Positions 381 to 49,829 of a stretch of 64,000 nt of DNA are shown piece after piece. The notes below the pieces were generated by a model, which saw only the letters and a list, made by a program, of their open reading frames with translations, searched no databases and was not told where the DNA came from. How positions within the stretch are numbered: position 1 is the stretch's first letter; the number at the start of each line of letters is the position of its first letter. Position numbers and translations under genes: made by a program. This DNA comes from Dysidea avara (lineage: Eukaryota > Porifera > Demospongiae > Dictyoceratida > Dysideidae): contig NC_089275.1 in NCBI RefSeq assembly GCF_963678975.1, positions 38,106,819-38,170,818 on the forward strand, given 5' to 3'.

Positions 381-2526
381 TTAATATTTTTGAATGTGAA
401 AAGGAGCTTTTGACCACTGCTTGGTTCCCGTTTTGCCAAATGGAGTAACAAACATTACTTGTTGACATTTGATAGCAGGAAATTCAGCACCTTTCTCAGG
501 CCATATGATAATCACACCAAGATCTTGGTTACATCTTTTGCATCGTATCTTCTGTGTAATGTAAAAGTCTCCAGTTTGACGGCTATTGCTGTGCCTCCCG
601 CGGGTGCATCTTTCATAGATGTCTTTAGTAATAACAGCATAGTGGGTATCAGCAATGATCCGTAAATCTCCACCCCAGAATAGGTTTAGGTCACACCCCC
701 TGCAGACAACCGCAACTTGACTAGATTGTAGTGTTTTTGAGTCTTTCTGCATTTGTTGATGGAGTTCTCTAGCTGAGAGAAGTTCTCTCTGTCGCTTTGT
801 TATCTCCTTTTTCAACTTTTCACCTTCAGGTAAATACTCCAAAGCTTCCATCATCAGATCTTCTTTTTCTTTGTTCAGTTGTTCTTGGTATATCTTTGGT
901 GATGACTCATCTAAGATGGCATAGCAACGACTATCTTTAGCTCGGGCTCGACCTTGTGCTTGCTTGCGTGCAATTTCATTTGTAACATAGTTGTACCTCA
1001 CAACAAGGTTACAGGCTGGAACATTCAATCCTTCCTCTAATGCTGATGTAGACACTAACAAGTTTAGTCTACCTTCAGTAAACTGCTTGATAATGTCTTG
1101 CTGCATTGTTACATTCATCCCACCAGTTTCTTTGTTGCTACGGCCAGTCACGATGTCTGGTCTAACCAACCCTTTCAGCCCAGCATTTTCTTTCAGCCAC
1201 TTACACATGCAACGAGCACTTTCCTTAGTAGTAACAAAGATGATCCCACGGGTGGGTGGTGAAGCTTTAAAATGATCAACCAGCAACTGTTTTAGTCTCA
1301 CCAACTTTGGATTTTCTATGGGAGCAATCATCTTGGCTTGTTGACAAAACTGGCTAAATAGGAGACGTAAAGATTGTTCATGTGGAGTTGGATGTAGTGC
1401 CACCATCATCTTCCTTTCTAGTAGGGCAACAGCATCAGTTTGGGTGAGGTCTTGATATACAGTCAAGGCTTTGTAGTAATATTGCAACTGCTTCAAATGT
1501 GTACGTAGATCTCTCTCCACTGGTCCGGTACGACATTCAGAATCATGAAGTTGCTGTACAACCCAACTCTCATAGGCTTGCATGTATCGTGGAAATGGAC
1601 ATTTGTTCAAACCAAAAAATGTTTGCAGCTGCTGCTCCATTACATCCATAGCCAAGTTTAGCTGCTTGAGAAATGCATCAGAACTACTGCGCGATTTAGT
1701 CTTTAGCAAGTCAAAATCTGGTTGATTGGTAAAATTTACCAATTCAGTGATGTTATCCCTCACAATCTTTATGCCTCCAAAGGCATCTAATAAAGCACAC
1801 AAGCTCAGCAAATGATCTAAAGTTTTTTCAACTTCTCCTGAGGGTTTATCACCTGCCCCTGGTGAAGCTGTTAGCCCCACAATTTGTGGAAGGTTTCTTG
1901 CAAAATTTGCAGCACCCAATTTGGTTTTAATGTAACCCTCCATGATCGTCGCGTATGGGGAATTCTTCTTTGCATTGTGGCACTCATCGATGACCAGCAA
2001 GCTCAGATCATTCAGGGAGACCCTCTTTGTACTGCTAAGAGTCTGCATAATTATTTCATTGTAGAGAATACCAGCTGTGCAGACAATCATCTGGTTATCG
2101 TGAAGCAGAAGAGAAAGAGGAGAATTGATGCCACAATCACCAGTAATGTGTTGAGCCTGTAGTCCAGGAATGTAGGACTTCACCTCGTTGCACTGCTGCT
2201 CTGCCAATGCTATTTTGTTAACCAGGAAAAACACTTTACCATCAGGATTCTTCTTCAGGTGATCTGATATCACCATTGATGCAATGAGGGTTTTACCAGT
2301 CCCAGTAGGAGCACACACTACATAGTTCTGTCCATCCAAGCCGGGTGCTGCTAACTCCTTCTGGTACTCTCGTAGTTTTTTTCCCATTGGTGGCACAAAA
2401 GCAAATGAAGGTTTGTGTACTTCAGGAGCTACAAAATATTAAAATAAATCTATCATATGATTTTATGTAAAGGTACAATATTACACAAGAGAAATACTAT
2501 TTATAATATACTGCTTATACATGCAT

Positions 2527-2598
<72 letters not shown>

Positions 2599-5500
2599 GC
2601 ACACACACATTTTGGAATAGAAATTGCTTCATGATTACTTTGTTCCGTGTGAGTGCGCTCCTGTTCCTTGAGTAGCTATTATAACCGGAAATGAGACAAA
2701 TATGATCTCCAAAGGTGTACACAGCAAAAATTAATTCCCTCACCTCATTTTGGTCTTGTAACTGATGATTATCTATAGTCTCGGGTATTTGTAGGCCTAG
2801 AAATGTTTATTTAATGGTAACTACATAAATACATTTATATGGATTTACAAAAACACTTTGGCACAACCATACTGTACTCACCCATCCTGAGGTTTTCTAT
2901 TATCCGTGTTAGCTGGGGAGCATTTTTCAGTTGCAACAATCTTTCACAAAGATCTAAAATGTCTTCTTTACTATTCACTTGTTCCATAAGACACTCCATT
3001 ATTATCTGATTAGCAGCAGTAAAGTGAGAACACTCAAATATTGATGAGATGTGAATATCGCACAATTCTCTTTCTAATAGTTGTACAGTCTCAGAATAGT
3101 TGTCAGGCATGTTCTTGATAATATCATCATAACATGACCTCAACTCTGACAAATCTGTGGATGTGAACAGTAATACATGTGAGTATAAGCACTGTAATAT
3201 CACAGTAGAGGAGATATAGCTAGCTACACAGGGGCTTACCCCATCCCCACCCCTTCAGTTTGAAAGTAGAGCACCCTCATTTAAAAATATACTCTATGAG
3301 TGTGCAAAGAGAGAAAAATTATGACCAGTGCTGTAGTCAGTGTGTATTATTATATATATACTTTTTTTTTTGGTACATAACTAAATGTAAAAAAGATCAA
3401 GATACTATAATAAGTCAAACTTTCTAACAGACCAGTCTCCAGGTTATTTCTTAATAACTAGTTACATAGCTGCATAGTTTCTGTTAGTGGGCATAGGGCC
3501 AGACATTTTTCAGCTACTTGAATTTTACAAACAAAAATTAAGATACTCCAATAGAGCAATCATCACGTTATACTTTAATAGAACAGTCATTGATACCCTA
3601 ACAGAGAATATTGCCACTTTTCTAAATGTACATACAGTAGCTACATGAATTGTCTTGCACTTTTCAAAAGTTCCAGCAAATTATCTGCATGGAACAGCAT
3701 TAAGCTAAGCACCTCCACGCCACAACACAGGTGCCTAAGATTACATAGATCCCTTTGGTCTGAAGTCTAACTATTACTCAACTACTAGACATGAAATTGA
3801 AAATCGGTACAGTAGTACAAAATTGCCAGAATATATCCTTGATGTTAACAAAAACAAAGAAAGAGACTCTGTACGTAAAATAGCCTCCAGATGCCATTTT
3901 AGAGCATTTATCTTGAAAATTTTCTCTGGGGAAACATTCACCAGTTTTACATAACATAAAATGCATGACTATATGACCTTCACTGTAGTCCATGAACAGC
4001 TTGATCACCCAAAATTTCATGGGCTCCAGCCCTGCTAAACTGATAATACTAACTAATTGTTGCTGCCAAATTCAATCTCAAATCTTTAAACCTATCATAG
4101 AGGTGGGGCCATACTCCCAAATCTCTTTAAATAGTTTTGTATTTCAGAGTGAAATTTGCAATGTGAAGTGCTCTCTATCAGTTGTAAGTGGGCCGGGTCA
4201 TACGGATTATCCGGGTCATTTGGGTCACATTTTGTCCGGATCAAGTGGGTCTTATCCCCTTCACTGAATATCTGGCGGATGAGATCACGTTTGACTATAA
4301 GCAAGAGTTCATAATATATATACTGAGGAGAATGTCGTACTCTCAAATACCCCTGTACAAGGGCATATCGTGAAGTTATGACATAGCACTTCTGAGTTTG
4401 CCCGTTTTTCTTTGTATAATTAATGATGTCATTAGTTGAACATGGTATCGATTGAACGCGTGCCTAACAACATCGCAAGCAACCAAATTAACTCCAGCTC
4501 TAAGTGTTTCTCACTGAACTACAATCATTCCTTCATGGGTTAAGACCATTTTGTAGGACTTTCTTGCTAGGCCATTTGTGAATACGGCTATCCTAAGTGT
4601 CGCGAGTGTGAAATGCTGCTAACGATTATTGCACTTTTACAGCTGCCCGTACGTCACAAACCACAACATCTTGTCGTTACGACATAACTTCACGATACAC
4701 CCTTCTACAGGGGTACATGGCCCCCCCACTTTTATGGAACACTGTTTGCAAGAAAAGATCGAGATAAGAACAGTCAGGATCTGGATACTCTAATAGAGCA
4801 GTCAGAGTATTCAGAGCAGTGTAGCAAGCTACTTAGTACGTATTTGTAGTTATAAATAAGGAGATATAATTGGTGGAGAGCAGCTATTGTCAGCAGGCTG
4901 TGATTTTTTTTTTTTGGTCTTCAACTTACAGTTGGCCTGGCCCCCTCACTCTTTGGCCTGTTCCACCGCCCCTGCAGGGGTATATGAGAGTAGGACACTC
5001 TCCTTAGTATATATTATGAACTCTTGCTATAAGTTAACAAGCTCAATTGTGTTGATGGAAATGCAGTTGTAAACACTCAAGAAACTTTAGTGGAGCCACA
5101 CCCACCATTCAGGAATATGCTTTGCCGTCTGTGCGGGGTATGTAGAGCCACAGCTACTTATCGGAATTGTACCAGCTGTGCTCTGTGGGCATGCATGCAT
5201 CACCAGATCCATGTTGCTACTTGAAATGTAGGCAACTAACTTTTAGAAATTCTGTAGCTGCATGTAAACTTACGTGGAGCCACTCCCACTTGATAATACA
5301 TAGCTACTCACTTCTTGCAGACAGTTTTTTATAGTGTAAAAAAATGTAGGGCTGACTAGTGGAACTTGTGGACTTTTAAGGGTGCTCTGTACAGTTCGTA
5401 CAAAGCTTCCCAAGACATAGTCTGTTTTGCACTAAAATAAATATTTTGGTCACTTAATTAGTCTGTGACATGTTGACACATTTTAGTACCCATAAATTAG

Positions 5501-8341
5501 GTATCCCATAGCAACAAGCGTACGCATCTTGCTATTCTATACCCTCTCACTTAACTTAGAACTACTCCATCATTTTTAATCCAATGGACATGAAATTTTC
5601 ACACAAGCTACTTTAGTAATTTTGCCAAAGAAGAGCGTTTGCCATTTTTAAATAGCAAGTTCAGATGATGAACAACATGGAAGTAAAGAAAAGGATTTCT
5701 GGGAGTGTCAACCCAAAAGATAAATATGTGATGAATGAGAAGCTAAAAGACAAAAATAAAAATGCACAATGGTTTGTGCTGTTTAGCATAGTGTATCATA
5801 AAAGTATCAAGGCTCTTGTGCGTAAACTGTAGGACTAGTTCTAGTATAAAGGGAAAAACTGTAACTCATGTTCTAAAGCAAATTTAGCAGTTGGGTTTGG
5901 ACTAAACTGTGTACTAGTGTTAGCTTATATCCAGTAAAAAAGTACAGAACACTTGCTAAAACCATTCGTAAGTTATAGAACAAATTAAATTTCATGGGAA
6001 GCCATATAAGCGGACTGTACAGAGCACCCTTAATCTAGTTCTTGGGGCACACCTCTATTTTAATTAAACCGGGTCACATGTGGGTCAGATCCGGTCCCAT
6101 CTGGATTACTATTCAGGTCAGTGGGTCAAATGGGTCAACAGTACTGACCCACTTACAATGCTGCTCTCTATGTGCATTAGATTCAAAAACTGTTTAACCA
6201 GATATGGGAAAGCAATAGGCTCATTTTTACAATATGGAATATGTATTGTATAAGGGTCTACCCACTACTCTGTATCATACATGGTTACTGTGCTAACAGG
6301 TAGCTACAAATGTTTAAAAACATAGTGTACCTTTATGGTTTATCAACTGCTGAGGTATATTTATACCAGCTTGTCCACTTGTTGCACCAATAGCTAAATA
6401 GAGTATTACCATGGTAACACACAATGGTGAGTTGTTGTTAGTTAATACGTACCTTGAGGACTAGTACTGGTGGGTGGGTGGAACACTACTGAGGTTGAGG
6501 AAGTCATTGACAAGGCAACATTATTATTAGTTGCTACATGTAAATTATATTCATGCACTCATCACAGATCCACATGTACATATTAATTTTATCCTTACAT
6601 AAGTCATTCATTGGTAGAGATGAGGACATGGTTACTGGTATATTACCAGTATCTTTATTGCCGTGAACAGACAGATGTGGTCCTGAAAATACATATATAG
6701 AGAGAGCTAAATCTTTAATACATTCGAAGGTATAAACACACAGTACATACCTGCTTTAAATTGAGTTACTTTAGTTTCCAGTGAACTTTTCCTGTTGATA
6801 AAACTCTAAAAGGAATTATAAGGCAAATACGTAAGGTGATTGGAGAGACTCTGTCAACCACACACATACACGTGCTGCTAGTCTTCTACCGTCTAAAATA
6901 ATTTTACAAGAACAGAATGTTATTGAACAAGACAAAGTCAACTCCTGCAGAACCACACACTAAACACCTGTCACAGTGCACATAGAAGTAACGCACTACA
7001 ATTCTGGATGTAACATCTACTCATTACTTTGTCATGTAACGCGTTACTTTAAAAGTTTGGCAAATTTGTTAGTAGCTAATACAGATTTGTATTGGACAAA
7101 CAATTTTGGTTTGGTGAAGTACTGCTCATTCACCAAAATCACCAGTTTCCTACTATACAGTATAATATGCACTTAATGATTGGCTGCACTTTGGGCCCTG
7201 AAGATGGCTGTACAGGCAAGAACAAAGAGTGATAGTGTATAAGGAGTGCCCTTGTGGGAAAGATACTATTAGGCTGAACTACACCACAGAAATGAGTGTC
7301 TAACTCATGTCACTTGTAGTTGTATGTTGGGAGCCTTATTTAGAAGGTTGGGCTTAGTTTAAAGCTTGTAACAAATAAATGTAGCATTACTAGTGACAGC
7401 CCTCAGAGTAACTTGTAATAAGTAACACGTTACGTTTTCTAGCAAAAATAGAAATATGGAACTGTAACAAGTTACATTGCATAGAAGTAACTAGTTACAG
7501 TTTTAGAGTAACAACCCTAACTCTGAGAATGGAAGCAGAAGACTGGCACAACAACCACAGTACACTAACTGCCTCCAGGCATACGTCTAACAAATGTTAC
7601 TTCCTGTAATAATGGTAACTGCACCTGACCCCTCAGAATTGGCAATTGAAACAAAGCATTTCATAGTGTATCCAAAATGCTTTACAAATGTGCTGAGCAT
7701 GTATAATGTAGAATCCCCTAGTGGTCATCAGCACATGCGCTTAACAAGCATAGAAAACTTTACAAAAATAATTTCACTGTCAGTTATAAGAGCATGCAGC
7801 CAATAACCAGAGTCTACGATATGTAGGATAGAGAACTGAGCAGAGAATATAGTGTACCTTCACTTCTGTGTTGTACTCATCAAGTTCTTGAAGTATTAAT
7901 CTCAACTTCTTCTCCAACTCATCAGTGTTGTATCTTATTATCATCACCTTGGATGATAGTTCAGAAATGTTGTGTTTCTCAACCTGAAATGATCGATATA
8001 TAGCTAGCTCACCACAATCACAGTCATACAGTATTTCTTACTTCAAGCAGTGCAGCTATACCATTATTCAACCCCTGATGTGTTACAGTAGGGTGGTCCT
8101 ATAACAAAATCCATCAGTATCATCAAGAGTATATAATCCTCCCCATTATATACTCTTGGTATCATGCATGCAAAAATGCATCAAATGTTTTACACCAGAC
8201 CACTATTTGGTGTTTTCATCAGAAAACAGAGTGCAGGTGAGTAGTACTAGCCACAATATAGCTAGCTAGGCTTACTTCCATACCTCAACACTTTGTCGGA
8301 AATTACCAACATAACTTGAAAAACTTAGTCTATCTTGTCCA
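381..8341 (-). CDS. RIG-I-like receptor RLR-1: coiled coil, Ser/Thr linker, CARD-like domain, DExD/H helicase, RIG-I C-terminal domain
   Basis: Probable cytosolic sensor of viral RNA. Exons in transcript order: 8341-8283 (least sure), 8098-8042, 7983-7858, 6805-6751, 6682-6599, 6533-6453, 3154-2882, 2428-381. Every junction from 8098 on keeps frame, and the later introns are all phase 1. The last exon carries the whole helicase: Walker A APTGTGKT, DECH box, TASPGAG, motif V ([15 protein letters not shown]), motif VI (QAQGRARAK), with a long helical insert between the two RecA lobes as in RIG-I/MDA5. The C-terminal domain keeps two zinc pairs (CRGC and CKRC) and a WPEKG segment typical of the RNA-end-binding domain. 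Upstream exons encode a heptad-like charged segment, a Thr/Ser/Pro linker and a CARD-like exon. The 5' end is unresolved. It is a close paralogue of the plus-strand copy at 18,979-21,059. The helicase assignment is secure; the N-terminal chain is inferred from phase and splice consensus. Confidence 0.88.
2528..2609. repeat. (CA)n microsatellite in an RLR-1 intron
   Basis: About 80 bp of almost pure CA dinucleotide, 100 bp upstream of the helicase exon acceptor of RLR-1 on the minus strand. No coding role; apparent open frames through it are artefacts of the repeat. Confidence 0.95.
2882..3154 (-). other. CARD-like (death-fold) exon of RLR-1
   Basis: A 273-bp phase 1-1 exon encodes about 91 residues, all apparently helical, with amphipathic spacing and the phrases IIKNMPDNY, LLERELCDIHI, IIMECLMEQV and LTRIIENLRM. 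Size and pattern match the caspase-recruitment domains at the front of RIG-I and MDA5, which signal to a mitochondrial adaptor. It is flanked by a CAG acceptor (3155-3157) and a GTGAGT donor (2881-2876). The exon directly precedes the helicase exon. The death-fold subtype (CARD, DEATH or DED) cannot be settled by eye. Confidence 0.6.
4350..4713. mobile_element. TA-flanked MITE (Tc1/mariner-like) nested in the hAT element
   Basis: Terminal inverted repeats of about 30 bp (CCCCTGTAcAAGGGc, then a shared TATCGTGAAGTTATG) end in CCCCTG and CAGGGG and are flanked by TA on both sides. It is 364 bp long and non-coding. A decayed relative of its right half lies at 38,526-38,660 in an AKTIP-like intron, sharing the words GGCCATT, AATACGGCT and CACAAACCACAACA. 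Confidence 0.7.
5380..6029. mobile_element. piggyBac-type MITE with TTAA target site
   Basis: Inverted ends GGGTGCTCTGTACAGT and its complement are bordered by TTAA on both sides (5376-5379 and 6030-6033), the signature of piggyBac-superfamily insertion. It is 650 bp, AT-rich and non-coding, nested inside the 2-kb hAT element. The terminal word GGGTGCTC is shared with the TTAA element at 28,157-29,231. Confidence 0.75.
6986..7527. repeat. Decayed relative of the GTAACGCGTTAC hAT family
   Basis: Words such as GTAACGCGTTAC, AGTAACTAGTTAC and TAAGTAACACGTTAC cluster at the two ends of this stretch, as in the well-kept copies at 14,723 and 61,225. The terminal CAGTGTTGGG is not intact and no target duplication is visible, so this is an old or partial copy within an RLR-1 intron. 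Confidence 0.4.
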
Positions 8342-11300
8342 CTTCAGATGTAGCTTTCAAATCTCACTTGTAAAATTCTGCAAACGCTAATATTGGTCAG
8401 AGGGTTCACTGCATAAATCTTTTAGAAAGGATCTTTTGGCTACAACGTACAAGGTAGCTACTGTATGAGTGAAGTAATCTTGAGAATGAACTGCACATGC
8501 TCAATATTTAGTTAATCAGACTAATCATAATTAAATCTTTAATAATGGGGAAATACGTGCAGCAGTGAAAGTGTGCTGATGAAAAACAAAATATCATAAA
8601 ATATTAGTCTACATGGGAAACTTTTGGAGGAGGAAAATTTTGGCAAATACACTGGCCATGTAAAATGAATTGTCTATTGGCAAACCAGCAGAAAATACAG
8701 TAATTGCTTAGGTGCTTAAAATCTAGACTAGGTCAAACAACATGAAAGTTTATTTATTATCTATTCAAATAATGCAGCGCAGAAGAAATTTGATATTTCA
8801 GATTTGTATGCAGTTACATACGTAGATTAGGTAGGGAATATGGCAGTAGTTATCAGTATAAATTGGGAGTCGCATAATGAATATAATACTTATCTTCAAT
8901 TTCACCCTTGATTTGACTTAGAAAGGATTCAATTAGGCCAAATTCTCTGTTTCCCATCCACCGCCCACATCTGGTTATACTGTCAACTCAAAATATTCCA
9001 TTATTCCGTATTCTTCCATTATTTTCCAGTTATTCTTGCATACTGTACAGGCTCGGTAAAAGCGATCTTGCAATAGTGTCAGCTCACGTGTCAGTATACC
9101 ATCAAGTCTCACATTTGTGTTATTTTTGCAACTTAAAAAGGAAGGAACAAGCATTAAGCATGCTTTATTACAGCTTTTTATGGGTTGCGATGGCTTGAAA
9201 ATCTGCCAACCTTATAATGGAACAATGAAATGGACCATCCATCTGCATGCAAATATGCCTGAGTCCAGGACGGGAAACAGAGGATTTATTTGGAGTGGCA
9301 TAATGACCTTGTTTTTAGCCACAGTTGTAGATTGACCTACATGTTGTGTGTCGCATTTTGACACCAAGATAGCATGACTTTTCCGTTATTTACTCTTAGC
9401 CCCTCCTAGGGGGAGAGCATTATCTACGTTTTGATTATTGATAGCTCATATGTGGCTTTCTACATAATTATGTGATCTATATATGATAACTACTATAGTA
9501 TGTACGCATTGAGCTGGATCCTCAAAAACATTTAATAACTCATGGATGCAATTGCACACAATCTTGAAATTTGGCACACTTGTTACTGCTTTTTTTTTTT
9601 TTGACCCACTAAAAACATTTCAAAATCTTTTCGTTCAAATGCCTGACAATATTTATGGCCAATCAAAATTTGCACCATACATTTCCCATTGGGAAGCCAT
9701 AAAATACAATGCCCTAGGCCTATGGGTGTATAATTATCTAATGATAATCAATGCAGGTAATGAACAAATGGGACAAATCCTCGGGATATATAGCTACTAT
9801 AAGTCGAGTACTAAGTATATAGGCGTTTGCCGGTGGTGACTGAAAACGGGGACCAGTACGCTGCAGTGGAGAACCCAACTGTGGTTTGTGGTGTCAAACA
9901 CGCTAGCCGTACCCCGGTATCAGTAGAGAGTGATTTTAGAGGAACTGACGAGTTGTTACTCAACTTCAACCACTGCCGGAGTGTTAAGACATGTAAGACC
10001 ACTCTAAGGCCGACCACTCCCAAACTTTGGGCCGTAAACTCCCGTCACAAGGAGCCGAAACTACATCAAGATTTAAATCCATGCCAACATTTAATAACAA
10101 ACTTACTTCTGTACGTAGAGGCACTATATGATCCACCATCGCAGCTCCACTCGCCATCACGATGAAGTCATATTTGAGAAGAAGTTGTCATGGTCAGTGG
10201 TCATGGACAAATATAGCCACTTAGTAGCTATGACGCATAAAATTACCCCCAAAACTTTCCCGTTATTTGTAGATGTTATGTTGTGGCTATTATCTATGGT
10301 TGTGGTAACTGGCTCAATGCAGTCGCTTAGCAATAGCAACCTAATCCTAATCTGTGGAATAATCCCTTTTGTAGCTGGAAAAAGTAGCCATGACCGTTTT
10401 TTCCCCTCTGTATTTGGCCCGGTGCATGGGGAAAAGTAGCTATGACACTTTATTCCCATACTTTTTTGCCCCACCAAAATACAGAAGTGATACTTTCCCC
10501 ACCAGGAAAATCCCTCGCTTGTATGTGTACACATCATGTATAAGGTTTCGAAGCCTGTTAAGGGACAAAATTAATTGACCAGCTCCAACCTCAACCAGAT
10601 TGCAATTTGTCACCACCAGAACACATGACAGTCATTATAAAGTATTTCCCCTAGGGGACAAATCATGCAAGCTGATGAGTGTGTAGTGCAGTAAGGGATA
10701 TCACCATGTGCAGAACATAAAAATGCTTTTGTAATGATTAGCTAGCTATATGATCTAGGGGTACAGACCCCTACTTCAGTTGATCGCCTATACCTTGTCA
10801 AACTCAAGTTGAATCCTCTTAGGGAAAGGTCTGGAAACTCCTCAGTGCATGTGTATGACTTCATGCTTTATTTTAATCAACATCTTTTGTAAGCATCCAC
10901 AATAACTAGCCTAAATTAAAGTCATCAAAGGCAACCTTTGGCTGTTGCTGCAGATCCTTATTTTTGCAAACACTACTCCTACATCTTTGTAATTTCCATC
11001 CATTCAATGTGTGGGCTTCATTCTCTTGCTATATAGTTAATGCTTCAGCTGCAGATTGGATCATCCATGCAGTCTTCTATCTTCCTCAAAACTGCTTTAT
11101 TGTGATAAAAGATGAAAGTACATCAGATTATGCACATTGATCAATGATCACAGCTGATGCTTAATTTGACAAAACTTGCTATCAACATGCAACCGGCAGT
11201 TAATTGTATGGTTAATTGGCAGTGATAATTTAGTATAAGTACAAATGGAATTAATAAGCGGTGAAGGTATCCAATGCAAACTAGGCATGGTCAAGCACTT
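8342..11300. other. Intergenic stretch between the divergent RLR-1 and the LINE remnants
   Basis: No gene is supported here. A single terminal-repeat end (about 9491-9535, containing TATAGTATGTAC and GAGCTGGATCCTC) matches the ends of the element at 26,298-27,653, but no partner end was found. The segment 9830-10,540 is richer in GC and has overlapping open frames on both strands without recognisable domains; short internal repeats around GGAAAAAGTAGC suggest repetitive origin. Any first exon or promoter of RLR-1 would lie in the left part. Confidence 0.4.
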
Positions 11301-11309
11301 GTGGTTATC

Positions 11310-11640
11310 ATTTATTATTATTATTATTATTATGACATATATAATTGGTTAAAAAAATACAGAGTCTTATAAAACCAATCTCAATTAAATCATACATAAG
11401 AACAACATTGATTATACAAAAATAGTCTTCTTAAACTTAGTACATTAGGGGAAGTGGCAATTCCATATGGTAAAGAATCCCAGTAAAGAATTCTCTGTGA
11501 AAAGTAAAACGTTGTATTGAAGTCTTGTTAAATTTTTATATATAAGCACTTAGTTTTATTATAAAAGCACGGCTTGAAACTTTCAATTATAATTTATCTC
11601 ACTTTTACCTCTTTTAATGTTCTGGTTTAACAGGCTGGAA
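11310..11640 (-). mobile_element. LINE 3'-end fragment with (ATT)n tail
   Basis: The minus strand encodes a short stretch like the C terminus of CR1/Jockey-type LINE polymerases (a YFSQRILYWDSLPYG-type motif). It is followed on that strand by a run of AAT/ATT triplets at 11,312-11,335, a microsatellite-like tail common at LINE 3' ends. It is a separate, smaller copy from the one starting at 11,900. Confidence 0.45.
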
Positions 11641-11899
11641 TCATTTCACTAAGAACTATATATTTATTTTCAACTGTACTAAAGGCAGAGATATTGACAG
11701 ACTGAAATATCACCTTCAGTACAAAGCCTATTTGATCTTCCTCATTGCATAGATGGCATTTTTAAGGCCACATGCAAACACTGCCCCCGACTCTAAAAAA
11801 TGAAGTGTGTGCATAAAAATGATGTCATGATTATTATTATTATATTTTATAATTGTAAGACTCATATGCATGAGCGTAGTATAATTAAATTAAAATGTT

Positions 11900-13660
11900 T
11901 GTAAGTACTAAGTAAATTAATTAATGAAGTACTAATTGAAGAGATCACTGGTGTACAAGTGTAGAGAATTGTTGTAGAGTTGGTGCATTGACAGTGACAC
12001 TTGGGAAAGCATTCCACTGAGGGATTTCTCGTGGAAAAAAGCTGAACTTGTAGCTATTAACTGTTGAAGATATTGTAACAAATGTTTTGTTGTGACCTCT
12101 AGTGATGAGAGAGTTAATTATTAATCATACATAAGCTGTCCCACTGCAAAGTGATAACATTTTCACTAACACTGCTGTATCTGTTAAAATTGGACATTAC
12201 ATATCTAGGCAGCTCCCCTTTGAACAGATTCCAATTGATTAATATTAATGTTGGTGTAGGGGGACCAAACAAAAGCTGCGTACTCCAAAATTGGTCTGAT
12301 ATAATTATGTACAATGTGCATCCACTCTGGTATTCCTCTGACAGAAGTGAGTGTTTCTTCTTATGAATGCTAGGGCAGAGTTAGCTCTTTTACAGATACA
12401 CTCAATATGCTTGTTGAAAGTAAGTTTACTGTCCAGTGTAAGACCTAAGTATTTAGCTTCCTGTACATGGGTAAGCATTTGACCATACAGGTGTAGTGTG
12501 TGACAGTTGGATGCACTTTGTGAGTAATTGTTAAAGCAACACATTTAATTGGGTTAGATTGCATAAACCATTTGTTTGCCCAATGTTCCAGACAACGTAA
12601 ATCATTCTGTAGGATATTGGAGTCAATGCTTAGAGTGAATTTGGCGATACAACAGACAGTCACCTGCAAATAGGAGACAAGTAGATTTCATACAGCTGGG
12701 TAAGTCATTTATAAAAAACAAGGAACAGTAAGGGGCCCAATTCAGAGCCCTGAGGTATTCGACTGGTAATGTTGACAGCTTCTGAAATAGAACCATCACA
12801 AACAACTTGCTGTTTATGGTTGGTTAAAAAAGACTGAATACAGTTAATTGCCTCTCCAGTAATTCCATAGTACCTTAACTTTAACAGAAAGAGTTTATGG
12901 GAAACCTTGTCGAATGCCTTGCTGAAATCCAGCAGTACGCAATCAGTTTGTGCTTTGTCATTTAAACTGGATGCTAAGTCATGGACAGTTAATAGTAGTG
13001 GAAGACCAGCAGAGCATTTTTGGTGGAAGCCAAACTGGTTGGCTGAGAGGATATTGTTACGTTCTAAAATTAATGACCCATCATAAAGGAGTAAATAATG
13101 TGCTCTAAAGTTTTACATAATACAGAAGATGGGCCTGTAGTTAGCTGGGTCGGATCATGATCCTTTTTTGAAAATAGGTGATACTATTGCTGTTTTCCAA
13201 TCTGTAGGGATTATACCTTGTTTAAGGGAAGCTGAAAACAAACACGCACGGAATCAAATCTTCAGCAAACATCTTCAGAAAGCTAGCAGGGATGTGGTCG
13301 GGTCCTGCAGCTTTTGATTAGAAGCTTAGTTATTCCAGAGGCCTGTAAATTGATTTTAAAAATACTTGGGAAAGGAGAGTCTCCAATGCTTGACAGGTCT
13401 TCATCATTTCTGTCTGTTGTAAAGACGGTACAGAAGTACACATTCAAGATCTTCGCTTTTTCTTGACTTGTGGTATAGGATTGCCCATTTCTTTCTAAGG
13501 AGGATATACCAGTGTGATGAGACCTTAAAGATTTAATGTACTTATAGAACCTTTTCCACTTACCATTCATGCACATAAGGATTGTGGACAGCCTTACACA
13601 CTGATTGAAAGCACATCTAGTTTCTCTGCTTACACCTCCTCAGCTGTTTAACACTTTAAG
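11900..13660 (-). mobile_element. 5'-truncated, decayed LINE (CR1/Jockey-like reverse transcriptase)
   Basis: Minus-strand frames encode, in order: a KWKRFYKYIKSL pre-polymerase segment; PTDWKTAIVSPIFKKGS; palm motif A with LLDFSKAFDKVSH; a PQGSELGP-type motif B; an FADD-box remnant reading FAGD (about 12,661-12,669); the thumb motif AKYLGLTLDSKLTFNKHI; and the C-terminal SFFPREIPQWNAFPS. No endonuclease domain is present, as expected for 5' truncation. Several frame shifts and an in-frame stop show it is dead. It lies in the intergenic gap between the two divergent RLR genes. Confidence 0.88.
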
Positions 13661-15145: not shown

Positions 15146-15733
15146 CTTGTAGCTACTTGAGCCCTTTTATATATGTGCTTGAGGAAGCAGGTGCTTCAAG
15201 CACTTGACCTATGTGCTTGACTCACGTTTGCTCAGTGCAAAGTTATCTCTTGCATGGTCCTTCCAGCCTAGACAGAAGTAGTGAACAGTGGGTCAGCAGT
15301 AGAAATTTAGACCAAACAACAATGCGAAAAACACCAGGAAACAAATCCGGCAAAGTTTACGGAAACTTTACGGATCATTATTACATTAATTTAACATCTG
15401 CATCCTCATCTCAATTTACATATCGTTCTGTTTGCAGCACTATTTCTCACGTTTCAATCTGCTTGCTCATTATAGCTGCCCTGTTCGGAAATTTTATTCT
15501 CTAACGGGTGTAGTCGATCACTCAGTCTGACCATAGATAACCTGCCTCGGGGAAATTTTTTTTGTACGAGGTTTACCGCCTTACCACGCCCAATATATTC
15601 ATAAGTCTGAAGTTCTTTATTGAAGGTCCAGAAAGTCAGCTCAGAACCTATTTCAAGCGAAACACCACCATGGAGATGCTCACATTGATTATAATCAGTA
15701 TTATTACCATCATCTTGTTTTATTGTTACTTGA

Positions 15734-18700
15734 ATAACAACCCTGGGCGTGGAGCAACCTCAGAAAGTAGCAGTAGCCAGTAGTGTTAAAACAACTGTTC
15801 CCGTCGTTCAGCCAGCTTCATCAGTACAGGATAACAGTGCCTCGAATGTTGTAGGTAAGTGCACTGTGGTCTGATGTGTGAAAATAGCTACTGCTTGATC
15901 ATCTGTTCAGACTGTTCTGCAGCAACTGATCAACATGTATCTGTAACAAGTGATGCGGTTGCAGCAAATAGTTCAACCACTAGCAAATCTGCAACTTCTA
16001 CTTCTGATTCACCTGATAATCATCAAGGTATATAAACTATCAGTTTTGTAAATTTTCTGAGTTTACGGACAATTTCCATCACTTTGCTCAGTGCCAGTGC
16101 CGCCCAGAGAAATTAAGGGGCCCAGGGCAAAGAGTTAAAGTTGTAAGGTGTAGACCAAAAAAAAAAAAAAAAAAAAAAAGGTCACAACCTGCTGGCAATA
16201 ACAATAACTACCCATCACCAACCATTTCTCCTTATCTATAAGCTTGCTACACTGCTCCTCTGAAGAATGCTGTGACTGCTCTATTAGAGTATTTAGATCT
16301 GACTGCTTTATTAGAGTATATCGATCTTTTAAACAGGTATTCAGAGGGCCCTTCATGGGGCCTCCTGGGGCCCCTTTCAGGCTGGGGCCCGGGGCAAAAT
16401 GCCCCAGTTGCCCCCCCCCCCCCCCCTGTGGGCGGCCCTGCTCAGTGCCAAAGTTGGCTCATGTATATTAGGTAATTTTCTGCATGTAGGACAACTACTA
16501 GACAATTTTTCATGCTGGCACAACTAACTTAGGTATAGCAAACAATTAGGTAAGACAGTTAGGTGTAACTGCAACACAATTACAGAACAAAACACACAAG
16601 ACCACAGTCACATACAATCAAAATAAAAGTACTGGGTAATAGTATATTAATTTAAAATGAAGTAGGGATCCAAGCAATAAATAGTAGTAAAACAAGAGAT
16701 GAATGATAGTATTACAGCATGGCTAGGTGGAAAAATTAATGGATTTTTCCACCAAGCTATGCTGTACTACCATGATTCATCTCTTGTTTCACTACTTTTT
16801 ATCACTTGGATCCCTACTTCATTTTTTTAATATAGTTACTAGTTTGTTTGGTTTTTTTTGTTACAGTATACAGCTATACATGTGTGACTGCTTTATTAGG
16901 TGACTGCTGTATTAGAGTATCTCAAGTCACCTTCACCAACCAGAGGTCTGTCACTATTTAACAATGGGGTGTGGCATCGTGATCAAGTATAGATTGTTAA
17001 GAGGCGTAGTCTTAGTGCTCAATCATTATGATTAATCAACCAAGATCGCATCACGTGGTATTGAACCTATCATAAAGTTACAGGTATTTTACAGAGCACA
17101 AGCATTTAAATAAGTTTGTAGCATCTAAATATGCTGCATAAGAAAAGTGTTGATAGGGAAAATTAATGTCTCAATATGGTTTCATTGCATGAAGAAGGAC
17201 AAAGACAAGCCTGGTTGAAGATAAAAGGAAAGACAAGGCGCAGAAGGCACATACTCGTCAGAGCACATCCCACTGGTGAGTTTGTTTTTGTGGCATAAAA
17301 ATAGTGGCCGTATACTGCTTCATTTGGCCTCCAGCCTTACTCAATCATGCTCTGACTTGTTTATTTACTAGGTAGACAGGATTGCAAAATTTCCGATTCC
17401 TGTATCTTCATCCCACTGTAAATAAAGTCACAATGAATTAGCTACCATCCTCATGCTCAACCCCACACCCAGCACCCATGATACAGCTACACTCATAAAA
17501 ATGGTGGGAAACTGTCTAGGGTGTCAATGAGCCTTATCCACAATGACGTTTTATGACATCACAAGAATAAAAATGGCCGCTATAGTTGGGGGACTGTTAT
17601 ACAGATGCCTATGGAGATAAATTTTCGAACGCTCATATTTCTGCGAGGCATGGAGATATTGACCATTAACAGTTATAAAGTAACAAAAGCTATTGTAAAC
17701 GTATGCTATTTAGAAAAAAATTTGAAACACGACTAAACTCGTTTATCATAATGTCTTATATAAAACTTGACTGTACCTGTCATTTAGAACTCGATATCTT
17801 CTTTCCTGACTGAAATATGAACAATTAAATTTTTTTTCTCCATATGTGCTTGTGTAACAGTCCCCCAACTATCACGGCCATTTTTATTCTCGTTATGTCA
17901 TAAAACATCATTGTGGATAAGGCTCATTGAATATAGATGCTTCAAGAGGCCACAATAATGTAAAATTTTCACTTGCATACACTGCTGCAAAGGTTGATAA
18001 TATTAACTTTTTTCCCAAGTGAACACAAGGAAGTTGCAAGAGTTCAGGGACACATAACATGGATATACGATTCATCCATTTAGAATATTTGGTATCAATC
18101 TGAAGTGAAATTATTTATGAACGATGACACAAAACCAACTTTCTCCAAAAGGTCATGCAATTTTGTTAAATCAGGTTACATGTGTACACCTGATACTTTA
18201 TTGCCACATTAAAAAACTACCTAATAACCATCACTACATTTTGTGGCAAATCCCAGTGAAGGTCACTGATTCACTGATTTGGATTTGCTACAAAATGTAG
18301 TGACAGTCACAAAGTTGTTTTTACAGTGTGTAACTAAGAATCAGGTGTGCCATCAGCAAAACCCTATATCGGTTGTGTTTTCATTAGATCGGTACAATAT
18401 TTAGAACAAACTTTGTAGATAGAAGGGGTGCCGTATAATTTCTTGGCTGCATTTATCAATGTAAAACGATTAAACTATTTTGAATCAACTGTGCACTATT
18501 TATATTAATGTGTGCTCAATTAAGTACAGCACCTTTTATGGGGTATTCTGTGTTTGCCACACTAACAATTCTCTCCAAATGGCTATGATGTCATCAAGTA
18601 GTTCATGTACAGGTGATGTGAACATTTAATATTTTATGACACATAGCAACTGGAAAATTTCTAAGCATTAAATAAACTTACTGCCTCTAATGCTACAGCT

Positions 18701-21059
18701 ATTGGTTTTCAACTAGTAAGACACGTCTAGCATCAAAAAAGGAAATCTTCCGTTTTCTTACCACTGAAACTACATTGCTTTAAAAGACTGAGATACTCTA
18801 ATAGAGTAGTCATGTAAACAAGCTATAAATCATGTAGATTTTTTTTAGTAAAAATTTCTGGCATGATGTTTTGCACAAAATGTGAATGCTGTTATATGAA
18901 CTGTGAACTGTGAAGATGTGTTATGTAAGTAGATTCTTTTTGTACAGTTACTGAGTAAATTGTGTTCTACTTCTATAGATCCTGAAGTTCACAAGCCATC
19001 TTTTACCTTTGTTCTTCCTGAGGGAAAAACACTTCGCAATTACCAGAAGGAGTTAGCAACACCTGGTTTGGATGGACAGAACTATGTAGCGTGTGCTCCT
19101 ACTGGAACTGGTAAAACCCTCATTGCATCAATGGTGATATCAAATCACCTGGAGAAGAAGCCTGATGGTAAAGTGTTTTTCCTAGTCAACAAAATAGCTT
19201 TAGCAGCACAACAGTGTAACGAAATAAAACAATATATTCCTGGACTGAAGGCAGATCACATTACTGGTAACAGCGGGATCAAGTTACCTCTTTCTCTTTT
19301 GCTGCAAGAGAATCAAATGATTGTTTGCACGGCTGGTATCCTACTCAATGAAATGATCATGCACTCTCTTAGCAGTGCAAAGAGGGTTTGTTTAAATGAT
19401 GTGAGTTTGCTTGTAATTGATGAGTGTCACAATACAAGGAAGAACACCCCATATGCCATCATCATGGAGAACTACATCAGAAGTAAGCTAGAAGGTTCAG
19501 GAAATCTTCCACAAATTGTGGGACTAACAGCATCACCAGGTGCAGGGGATAATCCATCAGGAGAAGTTGAAAAAACTTTGGAGCATTTACAAGGATTGTG
19601 CGCTTTGTTGGATGCATTTGGAGGCATAAAAATTGTAAGGGACAGGGATAACATTATTGAATTAGTCAATTATACAAATCAGCCTGACTTTGATCTCCTG
19701 AAGACTAAATCTCATAGCAATTCAGATCCCTTTTTATCCCTTTTACATTCTACCATGAAATCAGTGGAGGAATCAGTGCAAAACCTGACTAATACGAATG
19801 TTGACATCTACAGATGTCCATTTTCACGATACACCCGCTCTTATGAGAGTTGGGTTGTGCAGCTGCTTCATGCTTCTGAGCGTCGTGACGGAGAAATTGA
19901 GAGAGATATACGTGCGCATTTAAAACAATTGCAGTATTATTACAAAGCCTTGAATGTATATCAGGACCTCACCCAAGCTGATGCTGTTGCTCTATTAAAG
20001 AGGAAGATGACTTTGGCACAACAACCAACTGCACATGAACAAGCTTTGTATCATATATTTAACCAGTTTTGTCAACAAGCTCAAAAAATTGTTCCTATAG
20101 AAAATCCAAAGTTGGTGAGACTAAAACAATTACTGTTTGACCATTTTCAAATTTTACCAAAAACACGTGGGATTATCTTTGTTACTACTAAGGAAAGTGC
20201 TTACTGCATGTGTGAGTGGCTCAAAGAATGTGTTGAACTAAAAGGGTTGGTAAAACCAGGCATTGTGACTGGCCGTGGGAGCAATGAACATGGAGGGATG
20301 ACAGTGTTAAGACAACAGGATCTCATACAGCAATTTGATAAGGGTATTCTAAACTTATTGGTGTCTACATCAGCACTAGAAGAAGGACTAGATGTCCCAG
20401 CCTGTAATCTTATTGTGAGGTACAACTACGTTACAAATGAGATTGCGCGTCTTCAAGCACAAGGTCGAGCCCGTGCTAAAGGAAGTCGTTGTTATGCCAT
20501 CTTGGAAGAATCGTCACCAAAAGTTTATCAGGAACAGCTAAACAAAATAAGGGAAGATCTGATGTTGAAAGCTTTAGAGTACTTACCAGAAGGTGAGAGG
20601 TTGGAAAAAGAAATTGTAAAGCTGCAGAAAGAGATTCTTTCAGCAAGAGATCTCCAGCAAAAAGCACAGAATGAGTCAAAAACATTAGACTGTAACCAAA
20701 TAGCTGTTGTCTGTAAAAGTTGTGACCTTGGGTTATGCTGGGGTGGAGATTTACGCATACTTGGTGATAGCCACCGTGTAGTCATCACTGAAGATATCTA
20801 TGAAAGATGTTACCTGAAGAAGCATGACCGTAGCCGTGAAACCGGCGACTTTGTCATTGTACAAAAGGTGCATTGCAAAAGATGTGACCAAGATGTCGGT
20901 GTGACCATCAAGTGGCCTGAGAAAGGTGTTGAATTTCCTGCAATAAAATGTAAACAAGTTATGTTCTGTACTCCGTGGCCACTTGGTAAAATACCAGTCA
21001 CAAAGTGGTCAAATGCTCCTTTCAGTGTAAGGAAGTATTCTCTCAGTGCAGATAACTAA
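15734..21059 (+). CDS. RIG-I-like receptor RLR-2: Ser/Thr linker, DExD/H helicase, RIG-I C-terminal domain; no CARD-like exon seen
   Basis: Exons: up to 15,854 (frame open from 15,734), 15,911-16,027 and 18,979-21,059, joined by phase-1 introns exactly like RLR-1. The last exon encodes [35 protein letters not shown] and QAQGRARAK, then a C-terminal domain with CKSC and CKRC zinc pairs. It is co-linear and strongly similar to RLR-1 along its whole length. The two linker exons are rich in Ser, Thr, Ala and Val. An ATG at 15,670 opens a hydrophobic run (LTLIIISIITIILFYCY) that would be a membrane anchor, but its frame differs by one base from the linker frame, so linking them needs an unseen small intron or a sequence error. 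The 5' end is unresolved. A likely RNA sensor; without a CARD it may act as a regulator, as LGP2 does (inference). Confidence 0.88.
16095..16440. mobile_element. hAT-type MITE in an RLR-2 intron
   Basis: Ends CAGTGCCGCCCA and TGGGCGGCCCTG form an inverted repeat; the 8-bp duplication CTCAGTGC is perfect on both sides (16,087-16,094 and 16,441-16,448). The 346-bp body contains a poly-A run, two copies of the CTCTATTAGAGTAT word, and a GGCCC/C-rich right flank. Confidence 0.88.
16654..16825. repeat. Long near-perfect foldback in an RLR-2 intron
   Basis: Two arms of about 80 bp (beginning ATGAAGTAGGGATCCAAG) face each other around a very short loop near 16,740. The arms match at roughly nine bases in ten. 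A foldback-type MITE is most likely; the target duplication is unclear because both flanks are A/T runs. Confidence 0.75.
17525..17929. mobile_element. MITE with about 75-bp inverted repeats in an RLR-2 intron
   Basis: The arms start CAATGAGCCTTATCCACAAT and include AATAAAAATGGCCG and AGTTGGGGGACTGTTA; they surround an AT-rich centre of about 255 bp. No clear target duplication was found. It is non-coding. Confidence 0.75.
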
Positions 21060-21703
21060 CTAGTTAGATAGGTATTGAGTTACATAGCTTAGACACATAC
21101 TACACATGTAGAAGTACATGTTGTTTAGATATATGGAACATGTACACTGTAGCTAAATGCAGTATAGTTAATAGGTACGTGTAGTATCAAACTTATAATT
21201 TTTTATGCAATTGTAATTGGCCTACAGAAAACATCATCCTTAAAAATTAATGATACTACATAGTCCCATATATACCTGTATAATTATATGTGTATTATCA
21301 TGTTGTTCAATTACCAGCTTGTATCTATATACTGGTACGTATTGAATCTAGTAATAACATGACACAGTGTCTGGTGATCATTTATGTACATATTTTTCCT
21401 TTAATAGACTCTTACTATCTCACATGCCAGAGTAAACGACTTCACAGGCAAGATGAGTTCATAATTTGTAGAGAGTCTCTGTAGAAGGAATGATGGGAAT
21501 GCTATGTTGTCCTTTTACAGTTTATCCTTTATGTGCCAATGTATCTGTCATGTTATCTATTTTGTATAATAATTATACCAAATTAATCACACGCTTCATG
21601 GGCTTTTTATACCCTTTAGTAGTGAACCTGGCAAATCAAAATAAAAATGCAAATTGTGCTTCTGTTTTATTAGTACTCTATTAGAGTATCTCTATCTTTA
21701 TAA

Positions 21704-23425
21704 AGGATAACATCATTGAATTGGCTAGTCAATTACACAAACCAGCCAGACTTTGATCTACTGAAGACTAGATCTCACAGTGATTTGCAATTAAGTCGAT
21801 GGAGGACTCAATAATATAACTAGATATAGTTGATTTGTACAGATGTCCATTTTCTAGATGCATCCATGTCTATGAAAGTTGGATTACACAACTTCTACAT
21901 GATTCTGAGCTGATTGCACTGGACCAATGGAGATATATGCACACATTTCAATGTTATTACAAAGCCTTGCCAATGTATAGTGCTACCAATGTTTCTCTAC
22001 TACAAAAAAGGATAAAAATTGCAGAAACTCCACTCAATTTGAACAACAATTATACACCAGTTTTGTCAACAAGCTCAGGGAATTTTTAACACCGAAAACA
22101 GTGAAAATCTAAATTCCTAGATCAAAGCAACTGCTTATTAGCCATTTTCAAATATCACCATCCACACCTGCATTGGATCATCTTTGTTACCATCAAGGAT
22201 AGTACAAGATACATGTATCAGTGGCTCAAGGAAAGTGAAAGACTTGGTTCGACCAGATATTGTGACTGGCCATGGAAGCAATGAACAAGGCAGGATGTAG
22301 GCCTGCATCAAATATGCCAGTATAATAGAATTAAAAAAGCATAATAGGCTAGAGTGCTGTGCCAGCATAATTCTGGCATATTAGGTAGATATTTCAAAGT
22401 ATGGAGCTTAATTCCATGAAAATAGATCAATACTCCCTAACAGAGAAACTACAAACTGCAATAGAACACTCAAATGCATTGTACATAGCTCCTTATATTG
22501 ATACTCTTCTTATAGTGAAATACTCTAATAGAGCATTCACTGATTAAAATGTTCCAAGATAATTGTAATAAAATTAATGTTGCTAACTTAGGAGCATAAT
22601 GCAAGCATAATAGAAATACTGTAAGAGCATAATAGGTGGAAATTTTGGGGAATTCCTGCAAGCATTTTGGCAAACTTTTGAGCATATTGACTCAGGCCTA
22701 GCAGGATGACTGTGTTGAAACAACAAGATGTCAAAGAACAATTTGAAGATGGTGTATTAAACTTATTAGTGTCTACTTCAGCATTAGAAGAAGGATTAAA
22801 TATTCCAACTTGTAATCTTGTTGTGAGGTACAACTATATAATTTATGTTACCAATGAAATTGCTCATTTTCAAGCTCAAGGTTGGGCCCAAGCTGAAAGG
22901 AGTCATAATTAATTATTCTATTTTGGAAGAGTCATCACCAAAAGTCTACCTATAGAACAACTTAACAAAGAAAAAGAAGACTTGATGAAGCAGGCTTTAG
23001 AATTTTTACCAGAAGGTGAGAAACTAAAAATGAAAATTGTACAGCTGCAGATGGAGATTCTCTCAGCTAGAGAACTGCAGCAGCAGGTACAGAAAGATTA
23101 AAAAATACTGCAATCTATATAGTCAAGTAGTGGTCGCCTGTAAAGGCTGTGGCTTGTAGACTTACGAATAATTGCTAATGCCCACTACATTGTCATCACA
23201 AAGGTTTTTATGAAAGGTGTATCATCAAGGAACATGGAGTCACCACACTGGGGACTTTCTCATCACACAAAATCTGCACTGCAAAGATTGCAGGCAAGAC
23301 GTTGGTGTGGTCTGAGAAAAATACCTCATTTCCTGCCATTATTAATGTAAACAAGTAATGTTCTGCACTCCACAAGGCAAAAAAAAAGCAGTTGGAAATG
23401 GTCAAATGCTCCATTCATGCATGTC
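21704..23425 (+). pseudogene. RLR-3: decayed third RLR helicase copy
   Basis: The stretch aligns in order with RLR-2 from the region after the first RecA lobe onward: a NIIELA-like start, RCPFSRCIHVYESW, the helical insert, a damaged motif IV-to-V stretch, [15 protein letters not shown], a motif VI remnant (QAQGWAQAE), and C-terminal domain pieces (KGCG, HCKDC, KQVMFCTP). Walker A and the DECH box are absent, so the copy is truncated at the 5' side and would have no ATPase. Multiple stops and frame changes break it. It lies 645 bp downstream of RLR-2 in the same orientation, so a tandem duplication. A hAT-type MITE interrupts it at 22,298-22,700. Confidence 0.88.
22298..22700. mobile_element. 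hAT-type MITE inserted in the RLR-3 pseudogene
   Basis: Ends TAGGCCTG and CAGGCCTA are inverted, with the perfect 8-bp duplication GCAGGATG (22,290-22,297 and 22,701-22,708), which lies inside the RLR coding remnant. The 403-bp body carries ATACTCTAATAGAGCATTCA and many GCATAAT words shared with the element at 23,704. Confidence 0.9.
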
Positions 23426-37333: not shown

Positions 37334-37616
37334 TTTAACTGTCCTTTTGTATCATGTGATTACGCACGTGACAGATTACGGAAAATATTTAGTGGTGACA
37401 CTTTCACGGACACCTTGAATGCGTAAGGGTGATAGCATAGCCTCTGTCCTCTAGGATGAAGGAAACTCACGAAATACTGTCTTAAGGTGAAGTTCGCACT
37501 GTTTTTTTGTACAAGAATTGTTCAAATAAGTAGTTGTTTAAGAGCATATCAGAATACGGATTTTATACCAAGTAGTTTACTGGCGTTCGTTTTAGTATAC
37601 GGTTTTTTTCAGGTAT
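37334..37616. promoter_or_regulatory. Probable shared bidirectional promoter of ATP6AP1 and the AKTIP-like gene
   Basis: Only 283 bp separate the two divergent start codons. An E-box CACGTG followed by AC (37,365-37,370) lies 32 bp before the ATP6AP1 start; this core is the one bound by TFEB/MiT factors at lysosomal genes in vertebrates, which is suggestive for a V-ATPase gene but only by analogy. A poly-T stretch with CAG at 37,604-37,612 just before the AKTIP-like ATG may be an acceptor, so the plus-strand gene could have a 5' leader intron starting near GTGAAG at 37,487. No TATA box is evident. Confidence 0.55.
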
Positions 37617-43626
<6,010 letters not shown>

Positions 43627-44311
43627 CACCAGGAGTGCATTATTTAGAACTTTATTTTCACACATATCAGATAGAATGTATATTTTGTATGATGTTTGTA
43701 ATATTGAGTCACATTCATAACCTTTGTAAGTGCTGAGAAGGGAGAAACGCTTTTAGAGCAAACAAATTATTCTGGCTTGGTGTTGTAACTAATGATCGCT
43801 AACTAGCTTTTGTGGGTATAATGAAGTTACCTAATGTAAATCAATTGTATTGTTTGTAAGTTAGTGCCAGTGTTCCAGGCTAAATAATGTATTTATTAAT
43901 GTGAACTGTAAATCAGTGTTCTAGGCTAGTAGTAAAAGAGACCACAAGTTTTAAAGAAGGTATGCTGTCCCAACTTGTGGTTAGGATCATTAGGATTTCA
44001 GGGGACTACATGCATATATGACCATGGACAAGTGTTCACTGTATTGTCCATTTACTACAGTTGATGTTGCAGGATTCCCACTGTCAACAAACTGTTTTTA
44101 ATGCTTTAACTAGTGCATTCTCTCAGCTATCACTTATTGCTAAGACTCATTTTGTTACTCACTAGTAGTCCAGTGATCTCTTCTGTACAAGGTAATATTC
44201 AGTCTTCACTGGAAGGTGCAAACTTGTAATATTCTTTCATGATTGTTTTTGTAACTTTAAAAAGAGTTATTTTGTTGTGAGTAGTAGCTGAAATAGTTTC
44301 TCCTCAAGATA

Positions 44312-46916: not shown

Positions 46917-47212
46917 CAGGGGCATACCAAAAGGGGTTTCCAGGGGTTTCAGGAAACCCCATTAGATTTTACACACTACTTGACACATTAAGAATTGAAA
47001 CTTCAGGTTTCCAGAATCTGGAATCTATCATGGAACAGGACACATTTATCTAATAGTTTCTAACACGATAGTAACACTTATAGAATTATTATGATTTTGG
47101 TGAAAAGATCGAGATACTCTAATAAAGCAGTCAGGCAATATAAACTACTCTAATATAACAGTCACTTAGCTGTAGTGGAAACCCCTTTTCAAAATTCCTG
47201 CGTACGCCCCTG
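46917..47212. mobile_element. hAT-like MITE with CAGGGGC ends
   Basis: Left end CAGGGGCATACC and AAAAGGGGTTTCC; right end GGAAACCCCTTTT and GTACGCCCCTG, inverted. The flanking direct repeat TCTAT (5-6 bp) is shorter than the usual 8. The body carries GAGATACTCTAATAAAGCAG and a second degenerate copy of that word. Confidence 0.68.
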
Positions 47213-47366
47213 TCTATGGATGCATTTGATAAAACATAGTAGTCTTGTATTGATATACACATGCATGTATGTATAAGAACCGTGTGTGGGAAGATCAAAA
47301 TTAAAAACAGTCCTATATTTACCATATAGAACAGTTCATGCAACTGCAGTTCTATATGTGATATAT

Positions 47367-49799: not shown

Positions 49800-49829
49800 T
49801 ACCATTACACATTATAGATATGCTGTGTG

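Follow-up and report, generated by a model that had tools for sequence, protein, structure and literature searches.

Analysis of a 64,000-nucleotide stretch of the genome of the sponge Dysidea avara (NC_089275.1, positions 38,106,819 to 38,170,818 of the forward strand; hereafter the window) has revealed two RIG-I-like receptor (RLR) genes, of which the minus-strand gene A is our main subject and the plus-strand gene B its paralogue. As judged by sequence, the minus-strand exon 2428-381 certainly encodes an RLR core. As to what precedes this core, we give an even chance to a reading in which gene A specifies an RNA sensor of about 985 residues, with a predicted front that comprises a short start, a coiled coil of some eight heptads, a flexible Ser/Thr-rich linker, a helical module of about 90 residues and a short linker, followed by the RLR helicase and a zinc-type C-terminal domain (CTD). 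The helical module may be a death-fold domain, if anything DED-like rather than CARD-like.

The family of the core is evident from Pfam, with exon 11 (E11) matching DEAD (4.5e-22, 79 bits vs. a cut-off of 26), Helicase_C (5e-17, 62.6 bits vs. 23.5), RIG-I_C (5e-06, 26.9 bits vs. 23.2) and RIG-I_C-RD (8.6e-19, 68.3 bits vs. 25.6). Among the best 60 of 106 matches to PDB sequences, LGP2 was the closest (2.1e-91), followed by MDA5 (7.5e-83) and RIG-I (3.2e-81), with the Dicer-related helicases ranking below these three (best 2.1e-61). A preliminary description of this DNA, made from its letters, had already recognized an RLR helicase with a zinc-type CTD, and the Pfam domains and PDB sequence matches bear this out. 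Helicase motifs I, II, III and VI are found in both genes, as is a CxxC...CxxC pair in the CTD (residues 879/882 and 933/936 of the gene A model), the cysteines of which we take to have a zinc role in RIG-I_C-RD. The CTD of LGP2 (DHX58) has the same CxxC...CxxC spacing; gene A differs from LGP2 in that the latter, to our knowledge, carries neither an N-terminal coil nor an extra module. RIG-I and MDA5 share the helicase, insert and CTD domains with gene A and harbor two CARDs each, and we know of no coil in either. Comparison of the gene A and gene B helicases yielded a dN/dS (nonsynonymous vs. synonymous substitution rate) of 0.23 over 678 codons, indicating that the RLR protein has been kept under constraint. 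No relatives were found in the viral or prokaryote contigs searched.

Upstream of the core, an in-phase chain exists that comprises 11 exons joined by 10 GT-AG introns, with a start at 10157 and 985 codons plus a stop (Table 1). These exons were chosen by eye and then tested by scoring. The chain recovers exactly the 42-codon exon of the preliminary description (7983-7858, phase 0-0) as well as its exon 3154-2882, which is open over 91 codons in phase 1-1 with good splice sites; in addition, the small Ser/Thr-rich exons reported there are readable between 6682 and 6331 with phase 1 kept. No usable exon was found at 8341, the outer limit given in that description. Read by eye, the short ATG frame that ends near this point exits in phase 2, and the following exon, 8098-8042, can be read in phase 0 alone. 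The better first exon is 10157-10107, with its GTAAGT donor.

Table 1. Coordinates of the RLR exons and exon candidates in the window, with the evidence for each
Feature	Position	Strand	Evidence
Gene A E1, candidate first coding exon, 17 codons from ATG	10107..10157	minus	phase 0; donor GTAAGT, 98.9th percentile
Gene A E2, leads into coiled coil	8042..8098	minus	open in phase 0 only; acceptor 92.4th, donor 97.9th percentile
Gene A E3, main coiled-coil exon, 42 codons	7858..7983	minus	phase 0-0; exon score at least 10 bits
Gene A E4, end of coiled coil	6751..6805	minus	donor 99.8th percentile
Gene A E5, Ser/Thr-rich linker	6599..6682	minus	phase 1-1; acceptor 99.7th percentile; coding score -2.1
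Gene A E6, Ser/Thr-rich linker (weak)	6453..6533	minus	phase 1-1; donor 99.7th, acceptor 65.8th percentile; coding score -6.4
Gene A E7, linker (weak)	6331..6393	minus	phase 1-1; acceptor 72.1st, donor 91.6th percentile
Gene A E8, 91-codon helical module	2882..3154	minus	phase 1-1; exon score 14.0; good splice sites
Gene A E9, linker	2744..2796	minus	phase 1-0; acceptor 79.5th, donor 99.9th percentile
Gene A E10, linker	2609..2675	minus	phase 0-1; acceptor 89.0th, donor 93.9th percentile
Gene A E11, RLR helicase and RIG-I_C-RD C-terminal domain to stop	381..2428	minus	Pfam and PDB sequence matches
Gene B candidate first exon, Kozak ATG and membrane-anchor-like stretch (low confidence)	15670..15766	plus	hydrophobicity of start; donor weak, -2.6
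Gene B candidate linker exon L1 (low confidence)	15816..15854	plus	in phase; donor GTAAGT, 99.9th percentile
Gene B candidate Ser/Thr linker exon L2 (low confidence)	15923..16027	plus	acceptor 96.5th, donor 95.0th percentile; phase 1-1 into helicase exon
Gene B helicase and CTD exon, paralogue of E11	18979..21059	plus	73% identity; Pfam; dN/dS
Third RLR copy, degenerate	21703..23372	plus	tblastn pieces; Helicase_C

Two scoring schemes were applied to the region. An exon scorer trained solely on helicase codons found three exons of at least 10 bits on the minus strand of 2429-12000 (E3, E8, and E4 with another start). By comparison, 30 shuffles gave 0.3 such exons on average and never more than 2, and the opposite strand gave none. 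The second scheme was a blind gene finder, with weights for splice sites, starts and Kozak contexts set by the general consensus of animals, a codon table trained on the two helicase exons alone, a donor floor of -2 and a fixed charge of 6 per exon, the chain being required to end at the helicase. Its best chain for the gene A region scored 28.1, vs. a mean of 1.7 and a maximum of 15.5 in 200 order-3 shuffles and 6.6 on the opposite strand. This chain took up E3, E8, E9 and E10 whole, shortened E1 (from an inner Met, 10139), E2 (from 8074), E4 (from 6791) and E5 (6682-6647), and added three exons of its own (7207-7143, 4971-4950 and 4031-4009).

Several of the results weigh against the chain as drawn: 1) the blind finder left out E6 and E7; 2) the hand-picked chain scored just 6.7 in the finder's scheme, a value inside the range of the shuffles' best chains and due chiefly to E6 (-8.3, with an ordinary acceptor and poor coding score) and E7 (-4.8, with an ordinary acceptor), these two sums being the per-exon rows added up, minus the fixed charge of 6 per exon; 3) 6 of 44 overlapping real segments of the same length elsewhere in the window exceeded 28.1, the median being 9.1; 4) E7 and E8 are separated by the longest intron of the model (3.2 kb), possibly a gene boundary; 5) there are poly(A)-like signals at 6064, 5580 and 3579, and none was found in the 380 bases following the gene A stop. 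We read these data as showing that the coil exons and E8 of gene A are real, with the linker exons and the exact chain uncertain. The segments that outscored the gene A region (six, up to 39.2) all fall within 33001-50000 on the plus strand, where a gene of an unfamiliar family is possible; no Pfam domain was found at 0.01 in 35001-44400 of that strand.

The long E7-E8 intron, the weakness of E6 and E7 and the three poly(A)-like signals, together with an in-frame Met close to the start of E11, would fit a reading in which E1-E7 belonged to a separate small gene or transcript, with the RLR beginning at E8 or near the helicase, in which case the sensor would be LGP2-like or would have one helical module without a coil. 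We judge this to be rather unlikely, given that every junction from E4 to E8 is in phase 1 and that the blind finder places the coil exons in one chain with E8 and the helicase, even if the helicase was its prescribed end point and the gap was spanned by exons that it had added itself. Moreover, the early Met of E11 is not conserved in gene B, whose helicase exon needs upstream exons because it has no Met before motif I.

The predicted front of gene A includes an unbroken run of heptads in which the a and d positions are largely hydrophobic. In the best 56-residue stretch of E2-E4, which is located in E3 and E4, 14 of 16 a/d positions over eight heptads were hydrophobic, a count reached by none of 5000 shuffles (average 8.4, maximum 13). 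E3 alone had 10 of 12 such positions hydrophobic in its best register and E4 alone 4 of 5 in the same register, so that the register is kept across the E3/E4 splice, lending modest independent support to that join. Set against this, agreement of the E4 register is expected by chance about 1 time in 7, 10 of the 14 matched positions fall in E3, and E2 favours another register (3 of 5 positions, vs. 2 of 5 when read in the E3 register). The coiled coil proposed in the preliminary description thus holds as a sequence pattern and is somewhat strengthened across the E3/E4 splice, with E2 differing; the call is based on a count of hydrophobic a/d positions vs. shuffles. No Pfam family scored above cut-off for the E2-E4 segment.

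The preliminary description had called E8 CARD-like and had itself named a HMMER run with CARD, DEATH and DED profiles on 2882-3154 as the check, and at the HMMER level the outcome goes against it, with no Pfam CARD, Death or DED match up to an E value of 10 within the HMMER filters. The best match of E8 among PDB sequences was only 0.52, and NCBIfam gave no CARD match, a weak test with a library built for prokaryotes. Against a small profile of 5 CARD segments (RIG-I, MDA5, MAVS), E8 scored 3.7 bits with the alignment out of register. Among 2000 shuffles of each kind, 41 plain and 167 pattern-keeping ones did as well, whereas true CARDs left out in turn scored 19-45 bits; E8 has no significant match to the CARDs of RIG-I and MDA5. 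Of the initial call, what stands is a helical exon of suitable size, and the CARD class is not supported. The missing HMMER match does not show that a death fold is missing.

The corresponding profile of 6 DED segments gave 7.2 bits, with the C-terminal half in register, the one in-register alignment among the three families. Among 2000 shuffles of each kind, 15 plain and 46 pattern-keeping ones reached this score, as did none of 148 window frames or 93 helicase pieces; left-out true DEDs scored 16-65 bits. The profile of 4 Death domain (DD) segments, small and weak, gave -0.5 bits, with 505 of 2000 shuffles as high, while left-out true DDs scored 0.7-30 bits (the MyD88 control being the 0.7). 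DED may therefore fit E8 slightly better than CARD, not significantly so and with three families tried, which we regard as a lean, not a result. Two single-sequence structure models were mostly helical, one with six helices and the other with five of at least 4 residues, and the fold class is left undecided by them because their predicted local distance difference test (pLDDT) values were only 48 and 53; structure searches did not settle it either. E8 can thus be described as one small helical module, possibly of the death fold, and no further.

Two other views of E8 need to be considered (the literature is cited throughout from excerpts of the papers named). Were it a true CARD, gene A would be a one-CARD RLR like the cnidarian C type, in keeping with published one-CARD cnidarian RLRs (PMC8998645), the 91-codon length, the six helices in one poor model and the position upstream of the helicase; the low, out-of-register CARD score, matched by some plain and some pattern-keeping shuffles, and the lack of a Pfam CARD make this improbable. 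Alternatively, gene A may be an ordinary early-animal RLR of the 'A1' kind published for Amphimedon queenslandica (N-terminal Death-type domain, helicase and CTD), with the coil a mere spacer. In A. queenslandica, two RLRs are described as starting with a Death domain (PMC8998645), and LGP2-like proteins are reported from the same sponge (PMC8260672), and the two intact helicase exons in the window fit that number. However, E8 has no Pfam Death match and fares no better than a quarter of its shuffles on the small, weak DD profile, and the main text of PMC8998645 never uses 'coiled', so that we consider this view somewhat unlikely. The disagreement between PMC8998645 and PMC8260672 about the N-terminus is expected if the module lies near or below profile thresholds.

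If gene A is the coiled-coil sensor proposed here, its working may be pictured by analogy. In the vertebrate family, the helicase and CTD bind double-stranded RNA and expose the N-terminal part (PMC6723221). The helicase and CTD of gene A would likewise grip double-stranded RNA, exposing the N-terminal part, while the coiled coil would keep at least two sensors together. One RNA event may thereby bring several E8 modules close, and the clustered modules could then recruit an adaptor or caspase through like-with-like contact. The coil would in this way take on part of the clustering for which vertebrates use tandem CARDs, ubiquitin chains or the growth of filaments.

Gene B lies head-to-head with gene A, and its helicase exon, 73% identical to E11 and, as in gene A, entered through a phase-1 acceptor, matched RIG-I_C-RD (9.6e-20) and RIG-I_C (39.8 bits). 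An E8-like exon was not found upstream of it, a likeness to LGP2; relatives of gene A exons there were at chance level only, and similarity between the linker exons of the two genes was not convincing. The window has 570 ATG readings that run to 28 codons or more, and seven of these start at least as hydrophobic as the one at 15670, which alone among them has a Kozak context (ACCACCATGG; A/G at -3, G at +4); of the other six, four lie in TG-type repeats, one is an inner Met of the 15670 reading itself and one lies at 50543 on the minus strand. The 15670 exon joins in phase via 15816-15854 and 15923-16027 to the gene B helicase, giving a predicted protein of 773 residues. The first intron, however, would be just 49 bases long with a weak donor (-2.6). 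The blind finder scored 2.2 upstream of gene B, not above noise (mean 4.0 and maximum 12.0 in 25 shuffles; 12.3 on the opposite strand), and could not have found the 15670 exon because its donor is under the floor of -2. The N-terminus of gene B, drawn solely from hand-picked in-phase exons and the Kozak membrane start, is given with low confidence.

From these candidates, one may picture a head-to-head RLR pair in which the same RNA-sensing engine carries unrelated fronts, gene A being a coiled-coil sensor with a death-fold-like signaling module and gene B, lacking a signaling module, being fixed to a membrane through an anchor at its N-terminus and a Ser/Thr stalk. We hold this to be distinctly unlikely; if true, a membrane-built RLR would achieve by covalent fusion what vertebrates get by recruiting RIG-I/MDA5 to the membrane-bound MAVS.

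A degenerate third copy downstream of gene B makes this a local RLR cluster, and further copies may lie beyond the window edges. By tblastn, the third copy was recovered in pieces (1.7e-15, 4.5e-05 and 3.2e-51) that are interrupted by stops and shifts of frame, and it has a Helicase_C match (2.2e-07); no counterpart was found for the first 221 of the 692 residues of the gene B core.

The window holds other features as well. An open reading frame resembling, by eye, a reverse transcriptase of the long interspersed nuclear element (LINE) type lies between the two RLR genes (12705-13112 minus), and a shared repeat, 67% identical and perhaps a mobile element, occurs in a gene A intron (4915-4753 minus) and upstream of the gene B helicase exon (16168-16330 plus). 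Farther along are a rhodopsin-type seven-transmembrane receptor in a single open frame (44300-45307 plus; Pfam 7tm_1, 6.7e-13), two overlapping frames that look by eye like a tyrosine recombinase (52493-53289 plus; no Pfam match found at 0.01) and a short-chain dehydrogenase gene (62015-62488 minus and nearby exons; Pfam adh_short), which is probably intron-split as it continues in another frame.

RLRs with a grafted N-terminal module are already known: besides the two Death-domain RLRs of A. queenslandica, lophotrochozoans have many grafted fronts (PMC8998645), TRADD-N is fused to RLR-like receptors in cnidarians and brachiopods (PMC8195603), and sponge RLRs serve as an outgroup (PMC8476169). 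The Amphimedon 'A1 type' RLRs resemble gene A in having the RLR helicase and CTD, one N-terminal module and two genes; compared by description only, they are unlike it in that their module is reported as Death and 'coiled' does not occur in the main text (PMC8998645). The cnidarian one-CARD C-type and the lophotrochozoan RLRs, the latter with DED, Death, Ig, SAM or caspase fronts, likewise have an exchangeable N-terminal module, mostly on one exon, as E8 is one phase 1-1 exon; in contrast to gene A, a coiled coil is not among the fronts described for them in the excerpts (PMC8998645). In the TRADD-N and death-like fusions, death-superfamily adaptor parts are joined to RNA sensors, and Amphimedon has a large TRADD-N repertoire (PMC8195603); the three upstream frames of gene A, however, showed no Pfam family at an E value of 1 or less, a search that intron-split domains can escape.

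None of the main texts of PMC8998645, PMC8476169 and PMC12723187 contains 'coiled', and in searches on coiled-coil RLRs and on sponge RLRs a coil in an RLR was not described in the titles, abstract starts and passages among the matches listed, which covered few subscription journals. We thus regard the coiled-coil front as a new variant, based on predicted gene structure only. Since E5-E8 of gene A and L2 of gene B are in phase 1-1, they could be swapped with the frame intact, in line with the grafting of domains reported for RLRs of invertebrates (PMC8998645).

The question addressed by these data is how RNA sensors were wired to signaling before the tandem CARDs and MAVS of vertebrates. If our reading is true, a sensor with its own coil beside a paralogue with a possible membrane anchor would suggest that, at first, the sensor itself provided for its clustering and placement.

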